Virus record (IMG/VR): IMGVR_UViG_3300035698_016806 | Coordinates: 38,563-102,562 of that record | Length of the DNA stretch: 64,000 bases | DNA from: a virus | Reading direction: 5' to 3' (one strand) | Shown here: piece after piece, positions 48,406 through 62,279 of the stretch | Layout of the letters: each line of letters opens with the position of its first letter | Position numbering within the stretch: the first letter of the stretch is position 1 | Translations under genes and position numbers: made by a program | Notes under the pieces: generated by a model | The model's input: only the letters and a program-made list of their open reading frames with translations | The model's database searches: none | Told to the model about the DNA's origin: nothing

Positions 48406-49323
48406 TCAGATAGTCTCCATAATATTATTTATAATATCTCTTACATCTTGTTTAGGATTTGCATGAGCTATAACAGAACTTAGAATAGTTTTGAAATTAG
48501 GCTTATCTACTTGATTCTTTGGAAGCATACTAATAAATTCTGCAATCTTTGCCTCTGCCTCTTTCTTTGCTTCATCTTTTAATTCCGTAACTGCAATTTT
48601 ATTAAAGTCAAAAACATCCTCCGCAGGAAGACATGGAATCTTAATTGATTTTGATGTCCAATCATCACTATCAATCAAATGAACTCTTGGTTGAAATCCT
48701 ATTTGAGATTTTGTTGATCTTGGAACGGCTCCACAGTTTATTTGTAATTTCTTATTCTGTAGTCTAAGTACATGAGGAGCATGATTATCTCCACTGAGGA
48801 TACATTTTGCCCAGGGATACTTACGTAAAATTGCGTGTGCAGTGCTGTAATTTGTTTGTCCTGACCAAAGTTCACCTTTCTTTGTTATCATCAAATGCAT
48901 CAATAATACATCAGCTTCCACTGAAGGTTTTTCATTCCAACCACAACCCATAAAAGTAACTCCATTTATCTCAGTGATAGAATCAGGTTTGAGAATTTCA
49001 ACAGCTTTTGCCGTTTCAAGAATACCTAAAGGAGTATTTTTTAATCCCCCTGTGTGGTAATGGAGGTCATGCTGTCCAGGTACTGCCAATATTCTTACGT
49101 CATTATATTTTTGTACCAGTGATAGCACCCTGTTAGTAACTTCGTATTTAACTTTCGCAGAATTAAAGAAGTCACCAGCAACTACAATAACTTTTGAATC
49201 AGTTTTCATTGCTGTTTTTAGAATAAATTCAAACTTATTCATTATCTGCCCAAAATAGTCACCTTTTCGGTTTGTCGGACATCTATCTGTAATATGAATA
49301 TCTGCTGCTCCAATGAATTTCAT
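48406..49323 (-). CDS. SbcD/Mre11-type nuclease (gp47-like)
   Basis: ATG 49323, after GGAAGGAGTGGATT, gives 305 residues. Metallophosphoesterase motifs are in order: AADIH, VVAGDFFNS, VPGQHDLHY, LLMHLMI, ILSGDNHAPH. The C-terminal 80 residues are helical and would bind the ATPase coiled coil. With the split SbcC pair it should resect or process DNA ends for recombination-dependent replication, as T4 gp46/47 do. The start overlaps the SbcC N-half stop by ATGA. Confidence 0.88.
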   Translation of the reverse strand: MKFIGAADIHITDRCPTNRKGDYFGQIMNKFEFILKTAMKTDSKVIVVAGDFFNSAKVKYEVTNRVLSLVQKYNDVRILAVPGQHDLHYHTGGLKNTPLGILETAKAVEILKPDSITEINGVTFMGCGWNEKPSVEADVLLMHLMITKKGELWSGQTNYSTAHAILRKYPWAKCILSGDNHAPHVLRLQNKKLQINCGAVPRSTKSQIGFQPRVHLIDSDDWTSKSIKIPCLPAEDVFDFNKIAVTELKDEAKKEAEAKIAEFISMLPKNQVDKPNFKTILSSVIAHANPKQDVRDIINNIMETI

Positions 49324-50414
49324 AATCCACTCCTTCCACACACAGGACACTCTGTTTCTGCCCTGATTTTATCGTGTTGTTTTATGGCTTCATTCACTTC
49401 TTTAGTAGCTATTTTATGTTGTTCTTCATTTCTTTTAATTTTTACCAAAAGATCTCGGACAATTTCAATTTGTTCATTGTATTTATTGATAAATATCTTT
49501 TGCTTCTGTAGTGCTTTTAACGCTGTTAGAGCTTCAACAGTATCACTACTATCAGAAAGCTTTAAATCAACAAGTTTGATAGCTTCAACAGTGTTTTGAA
49601 TGATAGCTCTTTGATCTTCCTTGTTGCTAAGAGCTTCGCTTTGATCACAAAGACGTACAAGAGCTATTTTGGCTATACCAATATCATCGAACTCTTTCAA
49701 TTTTTCGTCAATATTTTTAATGAGTCTTATATTTTCAGATAATTCTTGGAACTCAATTTTTTTATGTTCTGCTTTGTGCATAAACTGTTCTAATTTCTTG
49801 GCAAACTTCTCTGCCTTCAGTACCCATTCAGTTTCTTTGAGTTCTTTTTGACGATCTTCAATTCCTTTTTTATGCACACCTATCTCAGCATTACATGATC
49901 TGACCTGTGAATTAATACTTTTTATTGCATCATCCATTATAGTCAGTCCAGCAACTTTGTTAAATTGCTTTGCTACCTGTCCTGGCTTATCTGCCAGTAG
50001 GAAGTATTGTTCTGTGGGATGCTGTCCCTGAATGTTGACTTCCTTCATTCTGGTTATTTCTTGTACTTCATCAGGAACATCAGTTTTCAAAGCTCTAAGA
50101 GGTTCTTGATTATCTATTTGATAATGATTTATACCCCCAGCATAACCATCTCTTGCTCTTGTTACAGTCCCAGAATCTTTATATTTGATTATGACTTCAG
50201 TGGCTTTTAATTTATCCTCTTTCTTTTTGGGATCAAGTTTATCATCTCTGTAACTATCACCTTGAGGACGATTCTGGGCATTCCATTTTATCTGTCTGAT
50301 TAAACCAGATTTACCTTCATCACTCGCACCAATTAAAATATTCACACCTTCATGTAATTCTATGTGCATATCTTGGTGTGTTTCAAAATATTTACTTTCA
50401 ATAGAATCAATCAT
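49320..50414 (-). CDS. N-terminal half of a split SbcC/Rad50-type ATPase (gp46-like)
   Basis: The 364-residue protein holds ATPase lobe I (Walker A GASDEGKSGLIRQI near residues 32-45, Q-loop region VNIQGQHPTEQYFLL) and one arm of coiled coil. It stops five residues after the zinc-hook motif CPVC (ECPVCGRSGL). Lobe II is encoded apart at 46879. The last codons double as the ribosome-binding site for SbcD. Its own ATG overlaps the stop of an HNH gene (TAATG), which supplies its ribosome-binding site. Confidence 0.85.
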   Translation of the reverse strand: MIDSIESKYFETHQDMHIELHEGVNILIGASDEGKSGLIRQIKWNAQNRPQGDSYRDDKLDPKKKEDKLKATEVIIKYKDSGTVTRARDGYAGGINHYQIDNQEPLRALKTDVPDEVQEITRMKEVNIQGQHPTEQYFLLADKPGQVAKQFNKVAGLTIMDDAIKSINSQVRSCNAEIGVHKKGIEDRQKELKETEWVLKAEKFAKKLEQFMHKAEHKKIEFQELSENIRLIKNIDEKLKEFDDIGIAKIALVRLCDQSEALSNKEDQRAIIQNTVEAIKLVDLKLSDSSDTVEALTALKALQKQKIFINKYNEQIEIVRDLLVKIKRNEEQHKIATKEVNEAIKQHDKIRAETECPVCGRSGL

Positions 50415-50953
50415 TATTGAATATTCTCCTTTACATAGTTATATGCAGGGCTATCACAACAAACCCATCCAACACATTGCTCTGCTGCAAGTCTTGCACA
50501 AACAGCATTATCAAAATCAACATATCTATCAAGATGTATAGTTTTCTGATTTATTTTTATTTTTGATTCCCATTTATTTCTGCTCTTACAATAATAAACT
50601 CCTTTAATGCCTGATGTATTATGTTTAAAATTTCCTGTATTTTGTAAATTACGTTTGTGTGTTAATTCTCTTAGATTACAAATACGGTTATCGTTTTTAA
50701 TTCTGTTTATATGATCAATATCATTTTTAGGTAAATACCCATAAAAACCTATCCAAATAATTTGATGTGCATAAAATCTTGAATTACCTATACCAACTCT
50801 TAAATAACCATTACAAGAATCTTTTATTATATCCCCAATTTTTATACGTGGACAATTTGGGCATTTCCATCTGAGAACTCCTGTTTTTTTATTATATGAA
50901 AATAATTTCCTAACTTCTTTTTGTGTTGGGGTTACTTTTTTTAATTTCTGCAT
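50414..50953 (-). CDS. free-standing HNH homing endonuclease with AP2-like domain (copy 1)
   Basis: ATG 50953 is 8 nt after AGGAG and yields 179 residues. An HNH_3-type nuclease motif is PKNDIDHINRIKNDNRICNL, and the C-terminal half is AP2-like (NTSGIKGVYYCKSRNKWESK). The protein ends AYNYVKENIQ. It overlaps the upstream ribbon-helix-helix gene by 44 nt and the downstream SbcC gene by one base. It would cut and spread this locus between phage genomes. Confidence 0.88.
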   Translation of the reverse strand: MQKLKKVTPTQKEVRKLFSYNKKTGVLRWKCPNCPRIKIGDIIKDSCNGYLRVGIGNSRFYAHQIIWIGFYGYLPKNDIDHINRIKNDNRICNLRELTHKRNLQNTGNFKHNTSGIKGVYYCKSRNKWESKIKINQKTIHLDRYVDFDNAVCARLAAEQCVGWVCCDSPAYNYVKENIQ

Positions 50954-51062
50954 CAATCATTCTCCTAATTATTGCCGACAGACTTCTTTCTTCTTCTGTT
51001 GCAATCTTTTTAATGTACTTTAGTTGTTCATCTGATAGTCTTATTCCCAATGTTTTTTTCAT
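50910..51062 (-). CDS. ribbon-helix-helix DNA-binding protein paired with HNH copy 1
   Basis: The 50-residue product MKKTLGIRLSDEQLKYIKKI and so on has a basic beta strand followed by two helices (SLSAIIRRMIDAEI), the Arc/CopG fold. Its codons for RRMI contain AGGAG, the ribosome-binding site of the overlapping HNH gene. It has its own promoter. A similar gene precedes HNH copy 3. It probably regulates the cassette. Confidence 0.78.
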   Translation of the reverse strand: MKKTLGIRLSDEQLKYIKKIATEEERSLSAIIRRMIDAEIKKSNPNTKRS

Positions 51063-51073
51063 TTTCATATCCT

Positions 51074-51102
51074 ATTTTAGCATAATTTGTTTAACAATGC
51101 AA
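51074..51102 (-). promoter_or_regulatory. promoter of the RHH-HNH cassette 1
   Basis: On the minus strand TTGCAT, 17 bp, TAAAAT lies about 12 nt before the RHH start. The -35 region shares the words GTGTTGCA with the promoter of cassette 2 at 58205. Confidence 0.6.
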
Positions 51103-51106
51103 CACA

Positions 51107-51532
51107 TTAAATATAGTTAAGTTCTACATCTGCGTCAACAAACATTTTTTCAGTTATTTTAATTTTATCACCCCATCTTTTAAATTGTTCTACATTGGCA
51201 TAACAAGTTACAACCCGTATTATTCCAGATTGAATTATTGCAGAAGCACATTGAGAACATGGTGGCATAGGTCATACATAAAGAGTAAACCCAGTAAGAT
51301 CTTCTTTACTAAAAAGAATTGCATTTAATTCCCCATGGATTACTTTTGCATATTTATTTTGTCTGTTATTAAGATCATCATCAGGTATGCCTTTAGGATA
51401 ACCATTAAATCCAAGAGATACAATTCTCTTATTGTCAGTGATAACAGATCCAACTTTAGTTGATGGATCTTTTGACCAGAATGCAATATGTTCTGCTAAT
51501 TTTATAAATCTATTATCCCATTTATCATTCAT
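51107..51532 (-). pseudogene. dCMP deaminase interrupted by an in-frame TGA
   Basis: The first 86 codons encode a deaminase N-terminus (DPSTKVGSVITDNKRIVSLG, then NGYPKGIP, and the catalytic HGE in VIHGELNAI) and stop at TGA 51272-51274 after TLYV. The same frame continues for 54 codons with PMPPCSQCASAIIQSGIIRV, the zinc motif PCxxC. Without the second part the enzyme has no metal site. So this is a nonsense mutant, a readthrough gene (the context is UGA-C) or a sequence error. The enzyme would make dUMP for the ThyA-like synthase. Confidence 0.75.
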
Positions 51533-51666
51533 AGTATATATCCAGTAGCAAGAATCCTTTTATCTTTAACGGCAATAGCTCCAATTTGTCTTCTGAGACA
51601 GGAGCTTTTAGTGGCAACAACTTTTGTGATACTGAAGAAATATTCATCCCAGGAAAGCTTACTCAT
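51529..51666 (-). pseudogene. N-terminal fragment of a second dCMP deaminase
   Basis: A 45-residue frame [18 protein letters not shown], then [21 protein letters not shown], is the start of a typical ComEB-type dCMP deaminase but ends at GYIL, just where NG would follow, and then overlaps the next deaminase by ATGA. It lacks all catalytic residues. It may be the remnant of a recombination between two deaminase genes, or a short peptide kept for coupling. Confidence 0.65.
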
Positions 51667-52925: not shown

Positions 52926-53315
52926 TTATTCTTCCTTTGGCATTATAACTTCAATGAATAAATCAGGCGCATTAACAATTAAACGATCTTCCAGCATGGT
53001 AACTGCGGAATAGTCGATATCTTTTGAATGAGATACAATAACAATAGCACCAACAGGGATTGATATTTTTCCCATTTCTTCAATTGGTTTTACTTCTGAA
53101 GCAACAGGATCAGGAAGCATTCCAGGCAAAGAATTTAGATCAATGAGCATTTGAATATCATCAGCTTCTAAATCCAAAGAAACTTGATACTCTGCGAAGT
53201 CGTCACTCTTGCCTGTTTCCATGCAAAACCAATCTAAATCACCATCTTCTATATCGTCTTCATACATCCATGTATTATCTGACCATACAAAAATTTTTAT
53301 TAATTCCTCTGACAT
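52926..53315 (-). CDS. hypothetical acidic protein
   Basis: The 129-residue acidic product (YEDDIEDGDLDWFCMETG; later ISIPVGAIVIVSHSKDIDYS) has no recognised fold. Its ATG lies inside the last codons of HNH copy 2, whose YVKEN codons give the ribosome-binding site. Confidence 0.65.
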   Translation of the reverse strand: MSEELIKIFVWSDNTWMYEDDIEDGDLDWFCMETGKSDDFAEYQVSLDLEADDIQMLIDLNSLPGMLPDPVASEVKPIEEMGKISIPVGAIVIVSHSKDIDYSAVTMLEDRLIVNAPDLFIEVIMPKEE

Positions 53316-53851
53316 TGTATATTCTCCTTCACATATTGGTAAGCAGGACTACTACTATCACACCCTTCCCAATTTAAACATTGCTCTCCTGCTAAACGAG
53401 CGCATACGGCATTGTTAAAATCTTTATAATACCCAAGCCCTTTATTTTTGAAATTTAAAGTAATTTGAGCTATCCATTTACTTCTATTTTTATTCCATAC
53501 AACTCCTTTTACACCGCTTGTATTATTTTTAGGAGTTCCTTGATTTCTTTGTTGACATTGATCAGAAGCTTCTCTTAGATTTAAAATCCAATTGTGATGT
53601 TTTATTTGATCTTCGTGATCAATTTGATTTTCAGGCATATACCCGTGATAGTGGAAATATGCAAGTCTATGAGCTAAGTACAATTTTCCATTTACACATA
53701 TTTGGATGTATCCTTTTTTATTTTTAGATCCTGCAATATCACCTATTTTTACTCTTGAACTATTTGATATTTTTCTTATAAAAATACCAGTTAATGAGTT
53801 GTAATCTAATTGTCGCAGGAGTTCCTTATAAGTTAGTTTTTCAGTCCTCAT
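53300..53851 (-). CDS. free-standing HNH homing endonuclease with AP2-like domain (copy 2)
   Basis: The 183-residue protein shares the layout of the other copies: an N-terminal piece LTGIFIRKISNSSRVKIGDI, HNH motif MPENQIDHEDQIKHHNWILN, AP2-like NTSGVKGVVWNKNRSKWIAQ, end YQYVKENIQCQRN. One HNH position reads HED where others read HID. It has no RHH partner. Its start overlaps the upstream gene (ATGAGGACTGA), and AAGGATTCTTAG there is its ribosome-binding site. Confidence 0.85.
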   Translation of the reverse strand: MRTEKLTYKELLRQLDYNSLTGIFIRKISNSSRVKIGDIAGSKNKKGYIQICVNGKLYLAHRLAYFHYHGYMPENQIDHEDQIKHHNWILNLREASDQCQQRNQGTPKNNTSGVKGVVWNKNRSKWIAQITLNFKNKGLGYYKDFNNAVCARLAGEQCLNWEGCDSSSPAYQYVKENIQCQRN

Positions 53852-54041
53852 CTAAGAATCCTTTCTTTTCAGCTAACCATTCAGGAATAAAGAAAACAAT
53901 TTCTTTTCCGACTTCAGGCTCATCAACATAGTCAGCTAATGAATCAGGAACCCATCCAGTTACTCCATCAACATTGATAAGGCAAGCATTTTGACTTACC
54001 TCTTTTACTTCACCATTGAACTCAAGCATTTCATCCCCCAT
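53841..54041 (-). CDS. small hypothetical acidic beta protein
   Basis: The 66-residue product (EMLEFNGEVKEVSQNACLIN, then VTGWVPDSLADYV) looks like a small OB or SH3-like barrel. TAGGAG precedes the ATG, and the gene is overlapped on both sides. Function not recognised. Confidence 0.65.
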   Translation of the reverse strand: MGDEMLEFNGEVKEVSQNACLINVDGVTGWVPDSLADYVDEPEVGKEIVFFIPEWLAEKKGFLDED

Positions 54042-58089: not shown

Positions 58090-58198
58090 CTATCATTCTC
58101 CTAAGTACATCAGAAACAGTTCTACCTTCCTGTTCTGAAATCTTTTTAAGATTTTTCAACTGTTCATCTGATAGTCTAACTGCAAATGTTTTTTTCAT
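58034..58198 (-). CDS. ribbon-helix-helix DNA-binding protein paired with HNH copy 3
   Basis: The 54-residue product starts MKKTFAVRLSDEQLKNLKKI and has the second helix TVSDVLRRMIDESL, an Arc/CopG-type fold very like the protein at 50910. It has its own promoter and hands on translation to the overlapping HNH gene. A role as autoregulator of the cassette is inferred. Confidence 0.78.
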   Translation of the reverse strand: MKKTFAVRLSDEQLKNLKKISEQEGRTVSDVLRRMIDESLRKRKIDSRRIGKAT

Positions 58199-58204
58199 AG
58201 AATC

Positions 58205-58233
58205 ACTTTATCACTTCATGTATTACAGTGCAA
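58205..58233 (-). promoter_or_regulatory. promoter of the RHH-HNH cassette 2
   Basis: On the minus strand TTGCAC, 17 bp, TAAAGT lies just before the RHH start. The upstream word GTGTTGCA is shared with the promoter of the other cassette. Confidence 0.5.
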
Positions 58234-59858: not shown

Positions 59859-62279
59859 CTAATATTTCCTCTTTCTCTGGGGCTTTAATTTGCCTATGAC
59901 ATTATCATAAGTTTCCTGACAGAGAGCAAATAATTCTTCCTCTCTGTTGTTATCTTCAATATCAGCAATTAATTGTTTCATGGATGGATTAATCCATTTA
60001 TCTTCATCGGATTTCTTTTTCTTTGGTGCTAATACTGTTAAAAATCCTTTTGTATTAATTGCTTTGGCAGTTCCAGTCCAGACACCTTCTTCCACAATGA
60101 ATATGATACAAGATGTTAAATTATCTACACCGTAATCAAATAGAATGGGGAAGTAAGCTTCTCCATGTCTGCCTGTCAATTTGTTCTTTGTAATTTTGGC
60201 TTGAACATTTGTAATCACTGTTCTTTTACCTTTTTTCTCTCGCTTTTGACAAGCTAACCAAATTTCATGTGCTGCATAAAATTTAAGAGCTTTACCTCCA
60301 GATCTTACTTTCGGAGTAAACTTTGCCCCGAATCCTATATTATCTCTTGTCTGTGAAATAACAATTAATAATGAACCATGATCATTTAGATCCTGTGTCC
60401 GTTGGGAAAACATTTCTGATGCTTTTTTTGCCTTACCATCTCCGAAACTTCCGGTTGTTTCATTATCTTTTTCTCTTTTCTTCCTGTTTTCTGAATCTTT
60501 TTTCATAGCAGCTTCAGAGGTCAATCCATCAAATGAATCAAGAACATAGATGAATGGTTCATCTTCCTTCAAAGCTCTTGCAAGATTATCATTTAAATCT
60601 TCAATTGTTTTAGAACGAATATCCTTTTCAATTCTATCAAAGACCATCTCACCAAAAAGATAAGCAATATCAAATTCGTCAGCGGCTTCAACGTCATCAA
60701 AGATGAATCGAAAGTTATTGAATCTTTTTTCCAATGTACACTCTGCAAAAACAGTTAATGCAAATAAAGTATTATGACTCACAAACCCATTGCTCCAAAA
60801 TAGGTGAGTATTTGGTATATGAACATCGTAAACAACTGTTTCTTTTTCTATATGTTTAACTTCTTTTATTGCATCAAAACAATATCCTGAATTTTGTATT
60901 TGTCTGTATAGGGATAAATCAATTGGTAATTCAGAAAATGTTTTAATAAATTCATTAATTAATCTTTTTGACCCATTTTTTACATTTGCAAATTTGAATC
61001 TTGGAAAAATTCCATCGTAATATCTACATCTACCATTTTTTGCCCATCCTAACTTTCTCCTAAGTTTGTTTATGTCCTCTTTCATTTTATTTGCTAAGTT
61101 TGGAACAGAATCATAATCACTATTTCGATATTCACTTTTTACTGGAATATTATATTTTAAACTTCCTATTTGTTCTCTATAAATATTTAATTCATTACCA
61201 TAAAAAGCAACAGCCCAATACTTATGATCATGAAATTTTACTCCGTCAAAAGCACCATCCTTAAATGATAGTGTAGATATAATTCCAAAATTTAGCAACA
61301 TTAAATGAACTTGGTTTGCTAATTGTTTGGATGTCGAAAAGTATGTTATTTCTTTATCAGATCCTCCGCTATCACAGTCAAACAAAGCTCTTAAAAATGC
61401 AGCTTGAATTGATTTCGGTGATTGAAGAATACAATCAGGTACATATTTATATCTTGCTGTAAAATTATCAAGATTAAATATTTTTGAGATTATCATTTGA
61501 AGATGCTTACTTGATATTCCGTTTAAGTTTAAATGTAACCCGAGATTATCACTAATAACTTCTAAATCTTTTCTAATATACTTTTTTGTATTTGAAATAT
61601 GGACTTGATTTTTGGATATGTTTCCATCCGCAACAATATATCCTAATAATCTTGCAAAATTTTCATCTACATGTTCTGGAATGTTTGCTTGTTTTACATT
61701 AGTTCCTTTAACAATAATTTTTGGCAATTTAAATAAATTTAAAGGGAAACAGTTTGTGGAACGAGCTATTATAGCACAATCACCTTGTTTTATATCTTTC
61801 AATTTTTTCATTTCAAATTGAAAATTGTTATTGAAAATCATAATAGGGTGATCTTTTGTTCCTTCTATTGAATATCCTTTATTTGTTTTAATTTTTATTG
61901 TTTTTGCAACTTCTTCTTTCCAAAAATGTGATGTTGTGTCAGAGATTCCTTTTGAAGTTGCCAATTTTTGTTTATACATTGAAGTCCCAAAATCAAAAGA
62001 TTTGCCGATAGAATCAATATATTCCATTCCGTTTTCTGTTAAAATATAGGAATCCCTAACACATTTCCCTGCATGAGAATCACCAATTAAATTGATTAAC
62101 TTGCCGAATTTAAATGCGCCTTCAATTCTACCAGAACATTCAAGATTAAAAGTTATTGACCCAGTAGGTACTAATTTTTCTGGATCGACTTCTTTAGATT
62201 TTATTACTTTCTTTTTCAATGAATCTTTGAAATCCTTTTTAATCTTTTTAATCCTACTTATCTTTTTGAGTTTAGACAT
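59859..62279 (-). CDS. UvsX/RecA-type recombinase carrying a LAGLIDADG intein
   Basis: Of 806 residues, 73-503 are an intein placed inside Walker A (GDSHAGK, then intein, then T). The spliced protein is 375 residues, close to T4 UvsX. Extein motifs include KLVPTGSITFNLECSGRIEG, Walker B FIYVLDSFDGL, LLIVISQTRDNIGFG and KVRSGGKALKFYAAHEIW. The recombinase catalyses strand exchange with the gp32-like protein next door. Without splicing the ATP site is destroyed. AAGGTAAATT precedes the ATG. Confidence 0.9.
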   Translation of the reverse strand: MSKLKKISRIKKIKKDFKDSLKKKVIKSKEVDPEKLVPTGSITFNLECSGRIEGAFKFGKLINLIGDSHAGKCVRDSYILTENGMEYIDSIGKSFDFGTSMYKQKLATSKGISDTTSHFWKEEVAKTIKIKTNKGYSIEGTKDHPIMIFNNNFQFEMKKLKDIKQGDCAIIARSTNCFPLNLFKLPKIIVKGTNVKQANIPEHVDENFARLLGYIVADGNISKNQVHISNTKKYIRKDLEVISDNLGLHLNLNGISSKHLQMIISKIFNLDNFTARYKYVPDCILQSPKSIQAAFLRALFDCDSGGSDKEITYFSTSKQLANQVHLMLLNFGIISTLSFKDGAFDGVKFHDHKYWAVAFYGNELNIYREQIGSLKYNIPVKSEYRNSDYDSVPNLANKMKEDINKLRRKLGWAKNGRCRYYDGIFPRFKFANVKNGSKRLINEFIKTFSELPIDLSLYRQIQNSGYCFDAIKEVKHIEKETVVYDVHIPNTHLFWSNGFVSHNTLFALTVFAECTLEKRFNNFRFIFDDVEAADEFDIAYLFGEMVFDRIEKDIRSKTIEDLNDNLARALKEDEPFIYVLDSFDGLTSEAAMKKDSENRKKREKDNETTGSFGDGKAKKASEMFSQRTQDLNDHGSLLIVISQTRDNIGFGAKFTPKVRSGGKALKFYAAHEIWLACQKREKKGKRTVITNVQAKITKNKLTGRHGEAYFPILFDYGVDNLTSCIIFIVEEGVWTGTAKAINTKGFLTVLAPKKKKSDEDKWINPSMKQLIADIEDNNREEELFALCQETYDNVIGKLKPQRKRKY
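60771..62063 (-). other. UvsX intein with in-frame LAGLIDADG endonuclease (431 residues)
   Basis: It starts with C73 (CVRDSYILTENG), has block B histidine in GTKDHPIMIF, two dodecapeptide motifs (LLGYIVADGNIS and FLRALFDCDSGG) and ends with VYDVHIPNTHLFWSNGF then VSHN before Thr. All splice-site residues are canonical. The GK-T site is a well-known insertion point of inteins in P-loop proteins. Confidence 0.92.

Follow-up and report, generated by a model that had tools for sequence, protein, structure and literature searches.

The window, by which we mean the whole stretch of 64,000 nucleotides analyzed here, is the last 64 kb of the 102,562-base contig C25 and lies within a 3.0-Mb genome bin. 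It belongs to a tailed phage, with terminase, portal, major head protein and tape measure genes on its left side and replication and recombination genes on its right side; a search of the window found no tRNA. Three HNH genes of one family are located on the minus strand, and two of them (HNH 1 and HNH 2) are preceded by an overlapping gene for a ribbon-helix-helix (RHH) protein (Table 1). Other IMG/VR phage contigs contributed three more examples of the same RHH-HNH build (L005, L009 and L141), which together with cassettes 1 and 2 of the window makes five instances.

Table 1. Coordinates of the cassette features and the comparison copy in the window
Feature	Position	Strand	Basis
-35 box TTGCAT, cassette 1	51097..51102	-	sequence
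Putative operator TGTTAAACA in promoter spacer, cassette 1	51088..51096	-	9-mer common to relatives
-10 box TAAAAT, cassette 1, ends 5 nt before ATG 51068	51074..51079	-	promoter scoring
RHH (Arc/CopG-type) gene 1	50910..51068	-	PF01402 26.9 bits; PDB profile matches Arc, CopG
Shine-Dalgarno AGGAG in RHH codons AGG AGA (RR), 8 nt before HNH ATG	50962..50966	-	sequence
HNH homing endonuclease gene 1, 179 aa	50414..50953	-	PF13392 56.3 bits; PHROG 99 2.6e-55; I-HmuI 1u3e
SbcC/Rad50-like half gene downstream; ATG overlaps HNH 1 stop (TAATG)	49320..50414	-	sequence, PHROG
-35 box TTGCAC, cassette 2	58228..58233	-	sequence, promoter scoring
Putative operator TGTAATACA, cassette 2	58219..58227	-	9-mer common to relatives
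-10 box TAAAGT, cassette 2, ends 6 nt before ATG	58205..58210	-	sequence, promoter scoring
RHH gene 2, 54 aa	58034..58198	-	PF01402 24.9 bits
Nested Shine-Dalgarno AGGAG of HNH 2, 8 nt before ATG	58098..58102	-	sequence
HNH homing endonuclease gene 2, 208 aa	57463..58089	-	PF13392 50.4 bits; PHROG 99 1.1e-59
HNH gene 3, same family, without RHH (comparison copy)	53300..53851	-	Pfam, alignment

All five cassette RHH proteins match RHH_1 (PF01402) above its Pfam cut-off of 20.5 bits, the relatives with 23.5-37.9 bits. The nearest solved structures in a PDB profile search are the Arc and CopG repressors, which are likewise single-domain RHH proteins (45-53 aa) but have no link to an endonuclease. 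The RHH strand was aligned to that of Arc by eye. The positions equivalent to the Arc strand residues that contact bases read T-(G/A/T)-R in every cassette RHH except that of L141 (P-G-R), which makes similar operators plausible. The polypeptide stops about 8-12 residues past the fold, and this tail is encoded by the gene overlap and is variable.

The HNH proteins had previously been described as HNH-AP2. The HNH part of this assignment holds, with HNH_3 (PF13392) scores of 56 and 50 bits against a cut-off of 24.8, but AP2 is weak by Pfam: HNH 1 reaches 22.0 of the required 33.3 bits, HNH 3 is also below the cut-off, and no AP2 domain was detected in HNH 2 by the Pfam scan. PHROG 99 (HNH endonuclease) fits both HNH 1 and HNH 2 at 1e-54 or better, the IDH...N..N region of the HNH core is invariant in our alignment, and the closest solved relative is I-HmuI (PDB 1u3e, E 1.7e-6). 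I-HmuI sits in a group I intron, whereas the cassette HNH genes are separate open reading frames between genes, in neither an intron nor an intein, and Rfam gave no match in the window. The HNH proteins are predicted to cleave DNA.

Nested genes and the promoter on the RHH start

RHH gene 1 encodes 52 residues from ATG 51068, or the 50 residues reported earlier if translation begins at ATG 51062, and overlaps HNH 1 by 44 nt as had been described. Its codons ATT AGG AGA ATG ATT GAT GCA contain AGGAG and, after 8 nt, the ATG of HNH 1 at 50953. The HNH 1 tail, AAG GAG AAT ATT CAA TAATG, in turn comprises a Shine-Dalgarno sequence and the start codon for the SbcC-like gene, so both nested signals proposed in the earlier note are present. 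The KENIQ tail codons of HNH 1 (50414-50435) and HNH 3 (53300-53330) are both AAGGAGAATAT, the predicted Shine-Dalgarno sequence of the next gene, which in the latter case starts at 53315. As read from these codons, HNH inserts 1 and 3 bring the start signal of the gene downstream. The gene upstream of HNH 3 (53841-54041) is not an RHH gene; it overlaps HNH 3 by 11 nt.

Cassette 2 repeats much of this build, as the earlier note had pointed out: it has a promoter (TTGCAC-17-TAAAGT), the AGGAG-8-ATG arrangement and an RHH-HNH overlap, here of 56 nt. The nested start for a downstream gene is missing, and a gap of about 100 nt follows instead. Between the two cassettes, the RHH proteins are 50% and the HNH proteins 44% identical.

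The genes flanking cassette 1 show features of their own. The SbcC/Rad50-like gene stops right after a CPVC zinc-hook motif, and its relative in contig L233 likewise stops soon after a CPTC motif; half length is apparently characteristic of the family. Directly upstream of the cassette, a dCMP deaminase gene (51107-51532, minus strand) contains one in-frame TGA (51272-51274, LYV*PMPPCSQC), which may reflect a broken gene, a sequence error or recoding, and 51529-51666 resembles a second, truncated deaminase start.

All five cassettes, and also a further, methylase-linked RHH gene of L009, have a sigma70-like -10 box whose end is separated from the RHH ATG by 5-7 nt. With the gap set to 5-7 nt, the best promoter fit among all gaps from 1 to 69 nt, the summed score of the five cassettes is 39.2, compared with 24.0 +/- 2.2 in shuffles (0/3000); the underlying model is that of E. 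coli sigma70, from which the sigma factor of the phage's host may differ, and the five sequences are partly related, which the shuffles do not model. The previously noted promoter of cassette 1, TTGCAT-17-TAAAAT, was recovered. Where the deaminase gene ends, 41 nt upstream of ATG 51068, a second promoter-like site (TTGACG-17-TATATT) outscores it.

Transcription starts about 7 nt after a -10 box. Because the box here lies 5-7 nt before the ATG, the RHH mRNA should be leaderless. We found no Shine-Dalgarno sequence before the RHH starts, save a possible one in cassette 1, where an AGGA is suitably spaced from the second ATG (51062), and a distant one at the second RHH gene of L009.

A related 9-mer occupies the spacer between the -35 and -10 boxes in all five cassettes and is exactly TGTNANACA in three of them. 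The spacer 9-mers of six promoters, including that of the methylase-linked RHH gene (TGTTAAACA, TGTAATACA, CGCAATACG, TCTAAAGAA, CATAATACA and TGTAAAACA), have an information content of 6.43, compared with 4.42 +/- 0.40 in shuffles (0/60). TGTNANACA occurs six times in the window, which is below expectation, and two of these occurrences are exactly at the cassette promoters. Elsewhere in the genome the full promoter motif has a single near-match, located within a coding gene that is unrelated (C160). The promoters contain no better perfect palindromes than their shuffled versions do, and we therefore define the putative operator by the common 9-mer alone. In contrast to the spacer 9-mer, the DNA upstream of the promoters is unrelated, with only 28% ungapped identity, and RHH third codon positions have 48%.

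The two arginines of the RRMID/RRFID motif are encoded by AGG AGA in 5/5 cassettes, a count that is somewhat circular in that L141 was retrieved with a pattern for the nested start itself. Since AGG accounts for only 17-27% of arginine codons, this choice fits selection for the nested Shine-Dalgarno sequence. RNA folds around the nested start have z values of -1.5 to +0.6, with no common structure hiding the Shine-Dalgarno sequence.

Relatives and insertion sites

Contig L005 was found with an alignment of the two window RHH proteins and L009 with an alignment of three HNH proteins. In L005, L009 and L141 the frame relation is unchanged, and genes for RHH proteins of 50-54 aa overlap the HNH gene by 44, 38 and 56 nt, respectively. 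When all five RHH sequences were aligned and used as a query blind to neighboring genes, these three contigs alone were returned. The cassette RHH proteins score at least 96 bits, compared with 36 bits for the next RHH, the methylase-linked protein of L009. Every close relative of the cassette RHH that we found overlaps an HNH gene (5/5), whereas 76 of 81 distinct HNH-family genes with enough upstream DNA are without this RHH, and a Pfam scan of 121 open reading frames upstream of 69 HNH genes detected RHH_1 in two, both already known cases. The association is thus one-sided: RHH genes of this family go with HNH, whereas HNH genes mostly go without RHH. The earlier proposal to ask whether the two genes occur independently in relatives receives a split answer.

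Scans with single proteins (HNH 1 against viral contigs, RHH 1 against phage records) gave no matches, and alignments were needed. Neither a peptide search nor the nested-signal pattern located the RHH in GTDB genomes, the latter returning nine chance matches. Among 125 genomes of the phylum this RHH was not found outside the window's own contig, bar one weak match, and phage or plasmid records contained nothing above noise. Matches to the short pattern AGGAGAATGATNGATG are mostly chance (2 real among about 118).

On the HNH tree the five genes linked to an RHH look scattered (5 changes, compared with 4.9 in shuffles), but a single clade passes the AU test (p-AU 0.34). The tree therefore does not demonstrate that the RHH gene hops between HNH genes, and the association may have had one origin followed by losses or may have arisen by repeated capture. 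The correlation between RHH and HNH identities is weak (r 0.15 for 10 pairs drawn from five sequences).

Two further RHH genes deserve description. The one in L009 (940-1077, plus strand) encodes 45 residues behind TTGCAA-17-TAGTAT-6-ATG, a geometry as in the cassettes and hence predicted leaderless; the gene coupled to it via TAATG has a DPPY motif resembling that of DNA methylases. A sixth RHH-HNH pair (C25:901-1685, L096, minus strand) consists of an 87-residue CopG-like RHH just under the PF01402 cut-off and a distant HNH protein; it has a consensus promoter (TTGACA-17-TATAAT), and the HNH start uses GGAGG within the end of the RHH gene, with a 4-nt overlap. This pair suggests that RHH-HNH pairing arose more than once.

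By way of the helicase genes that lie downstream in L005 and L141 we reached contig L236. For the L005 cassette, as opposed to those in the window, this contig represents an empty site: the stop of the primase gene and the start of the helicase gene overlap there as TAATG. L005 carries about 758 extra nt exactly at this stop-start junction, comprising about 90 nt, the RHH gene and the HNH gene, with the helicase start within the HNH end and nothing else recognizable. The helicases of the two contigs are 74% identical in DNA and the primases 45% in protein. A 27-residue open reading frame before the L005 cassette was considered as a leftover helicase N terminus but gave no significant match. 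In the window the cassettes occupy two other sites, one ahead of the SbcC-like gene and one following a 5'-3' exonuclease gene, and L009 has its copy elsewhere again; no RHH or HNH gene lies at the 5' end of the distantly related SbcC-like genes of L232 and L233. The earlier view of the cassette as a mobile unit is supported by the several different sites of its five copies, together with the empty site in L236, and the tested promoter position, spacer motif and arginine codons agree with its conclusion that the build is not due to chance.

A candidate self-limiting homing element

We interpret the build as a free-standing, intronless HNH homing cassette with its own RHH-autoregulated promoter, a predicted leaderless RHH gene and a nested HNH start, and assign this reading a probability of roughly two-thirds. 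Transcription would start at or beside the A of the RHH ATG, so that RHH is translated from a leaderless mRNA, and HNH translation would start inside the RHH gene, using the two arginine codons of RRMID as Shine-Dalgarno sequence. An RHH dimer would then probably bind the spacer element (TGTNANACA) between the -35 and -10 boxes and close the promoter. The expected result is a brief pulse of endonuclease, after which the element limits its own expression. By inserting at gene junctions in replication and recombination operons, where it can supply the start of the next gene, the cassette would leave the operon readable. Control of the HNH gene by an RHH repressor, as originally suggested, is plausible, and better founded now because the predicted leaderless promoter sits on the RHH start, a common motif lies between its -35 and -10 boxes, and RHH is an Arc/CopG-like single-domain protein. 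Homing as such does not require the repressor, since most of the HNH relatives lack this RHH.

A broader reading, which we put forward tentatively and consider rather improbable, regards RHH and its leaderless promoter as a portable control cap exchanged between cargo genes, namely different HNH genes and the DNA methylase-like gene of L009. Each RHH could in addition repress other cassettes, because the copies in one phage share an operator core. Total nuclease would then be constant within a phage, and incoming cassettes would be silenced at co-infection, amounting to homing immunity.

It is unlikely that the RHH gene acts as a translational starter only, providing promoter and ribosome loading for a fixed low HNH level by coupling, without repression. 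The overlaps and the Shine-Dalgarno sequence in the RHH codons are conserved, and excerpts of an account of phage T4 describe start codons of free-standing endonucleases as often overlapping upstream genes, with segC, mobA and mobC doing so without a regulator (PMC2988022). Yet RHH is conserved as a protein, with identities of 0.65, 0.79 and 0.48 at codon positions 1, 2 and 3; all five copies exceed the Pfam cut-off and share the spacer motif, and a DNA-binding fold would be superfluous in a mere starter.

Still less probable is a toxin-antitoxin pair in which RHH also neutralizes the nuclease by contact. Such operons usually place an RHH antitoxin first and an overlapping toxin second, as is the case here, and some weaker Pfam matches are antitoxin families. 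However, the short and variable tail past the RHH fold leaves almost no neutralizing region, and, unlike the toxin of a type II system, the HNH occurs without such an RHH in most relatives, including HNH 3 of the same phage. Nested translation would yield matched amounts of both proteins, as might be expected if RHH were instead a split DNA-targeting subunit of the nuclease, but we regard this as very improbable: the HNH proteins retain their own C-terminal region, most of their relatives are without RHH, and the common motif sits in the promoter. Chance adjacency of two unrelated genes with an incidental overlap, for which the overlap of HNH 3 with an unrelated gene could be cited, is scarcely credible given that frame relation, start site and promoter geometry agree in five instances and that a further pair, of different families, stands at C25:901-1685.

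We compared the putatively RHH-regulated cassette with known systems. Excerpts of a 2025 account of moraphages place CcdA/HicB-like antitoxin genes beside PacI-like homing endonucleases, with regulation suggested (PMC12619734). These pairs, too, combine a small antitoxin-type repressor gene with a homing nuclease in several copies per phage, but the families of both proteins differ, and the nested start, promoter geometry, operator and empty site described here are absent from those excerpts. In the T4 account, I-TevI is a transcriptional autorepressor of its own promoter (PMC2988022); an element-encoded protein thus shuts the endonuclease promoter and limits expression, as proposed for the cassette, but there the endonuclease itself is the repressor and lies inside a group I intron, whereas we propose a separate RHH protein. 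The T4 mob and seg genes resemble the cassettes in their intergenic insertion near replication and nucleotide genes and in their overlapping starts, and mob endonucleases are of the HNH type; seven of these genes have no promoter of their own, and none is described with an RHH partner in the same excerpts (PMC2988022). The element may still be called unusual, as the earlier note did, but the pairing of a repressor with a homing nuclease has precedent. We found no report of an RHH-HNH_3 cassette with a nested start in the open-access literature, and the cassette is a new version of an emerging idea. The molecular details of how selfish homing genes spare their carrier phage are known in few cases (T4), and this compact arrangement of separate candidate repressor, predicted leaderless transcript and nested nuclease start offers a directly testable second solution. 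The common operator core also raises the question of whether such elements, when present in several copies, keep one another in check.

The window phage is loaded with homing elements. Its UvsX-like recombinase gene (59859-62279) is split by a LAGLIDADG intein, and the DNA polymerase gene at C25:1840-6444 (L096) contains large intein/HNH-like inserts. A further RHH-like gene with a basic tail (MAATRLSFSYPEELKEKIMELALRDGRTLSSYVQKV..., C25:25861-26118, L097, minus strand) is followed by a different, lysine-rich open reading frame that is not HNH. Partial or frameshifted HNH genes of the same family as those in the window are found at C25:29669-30201 and C25:21406-21615 and are probably decaying copies.
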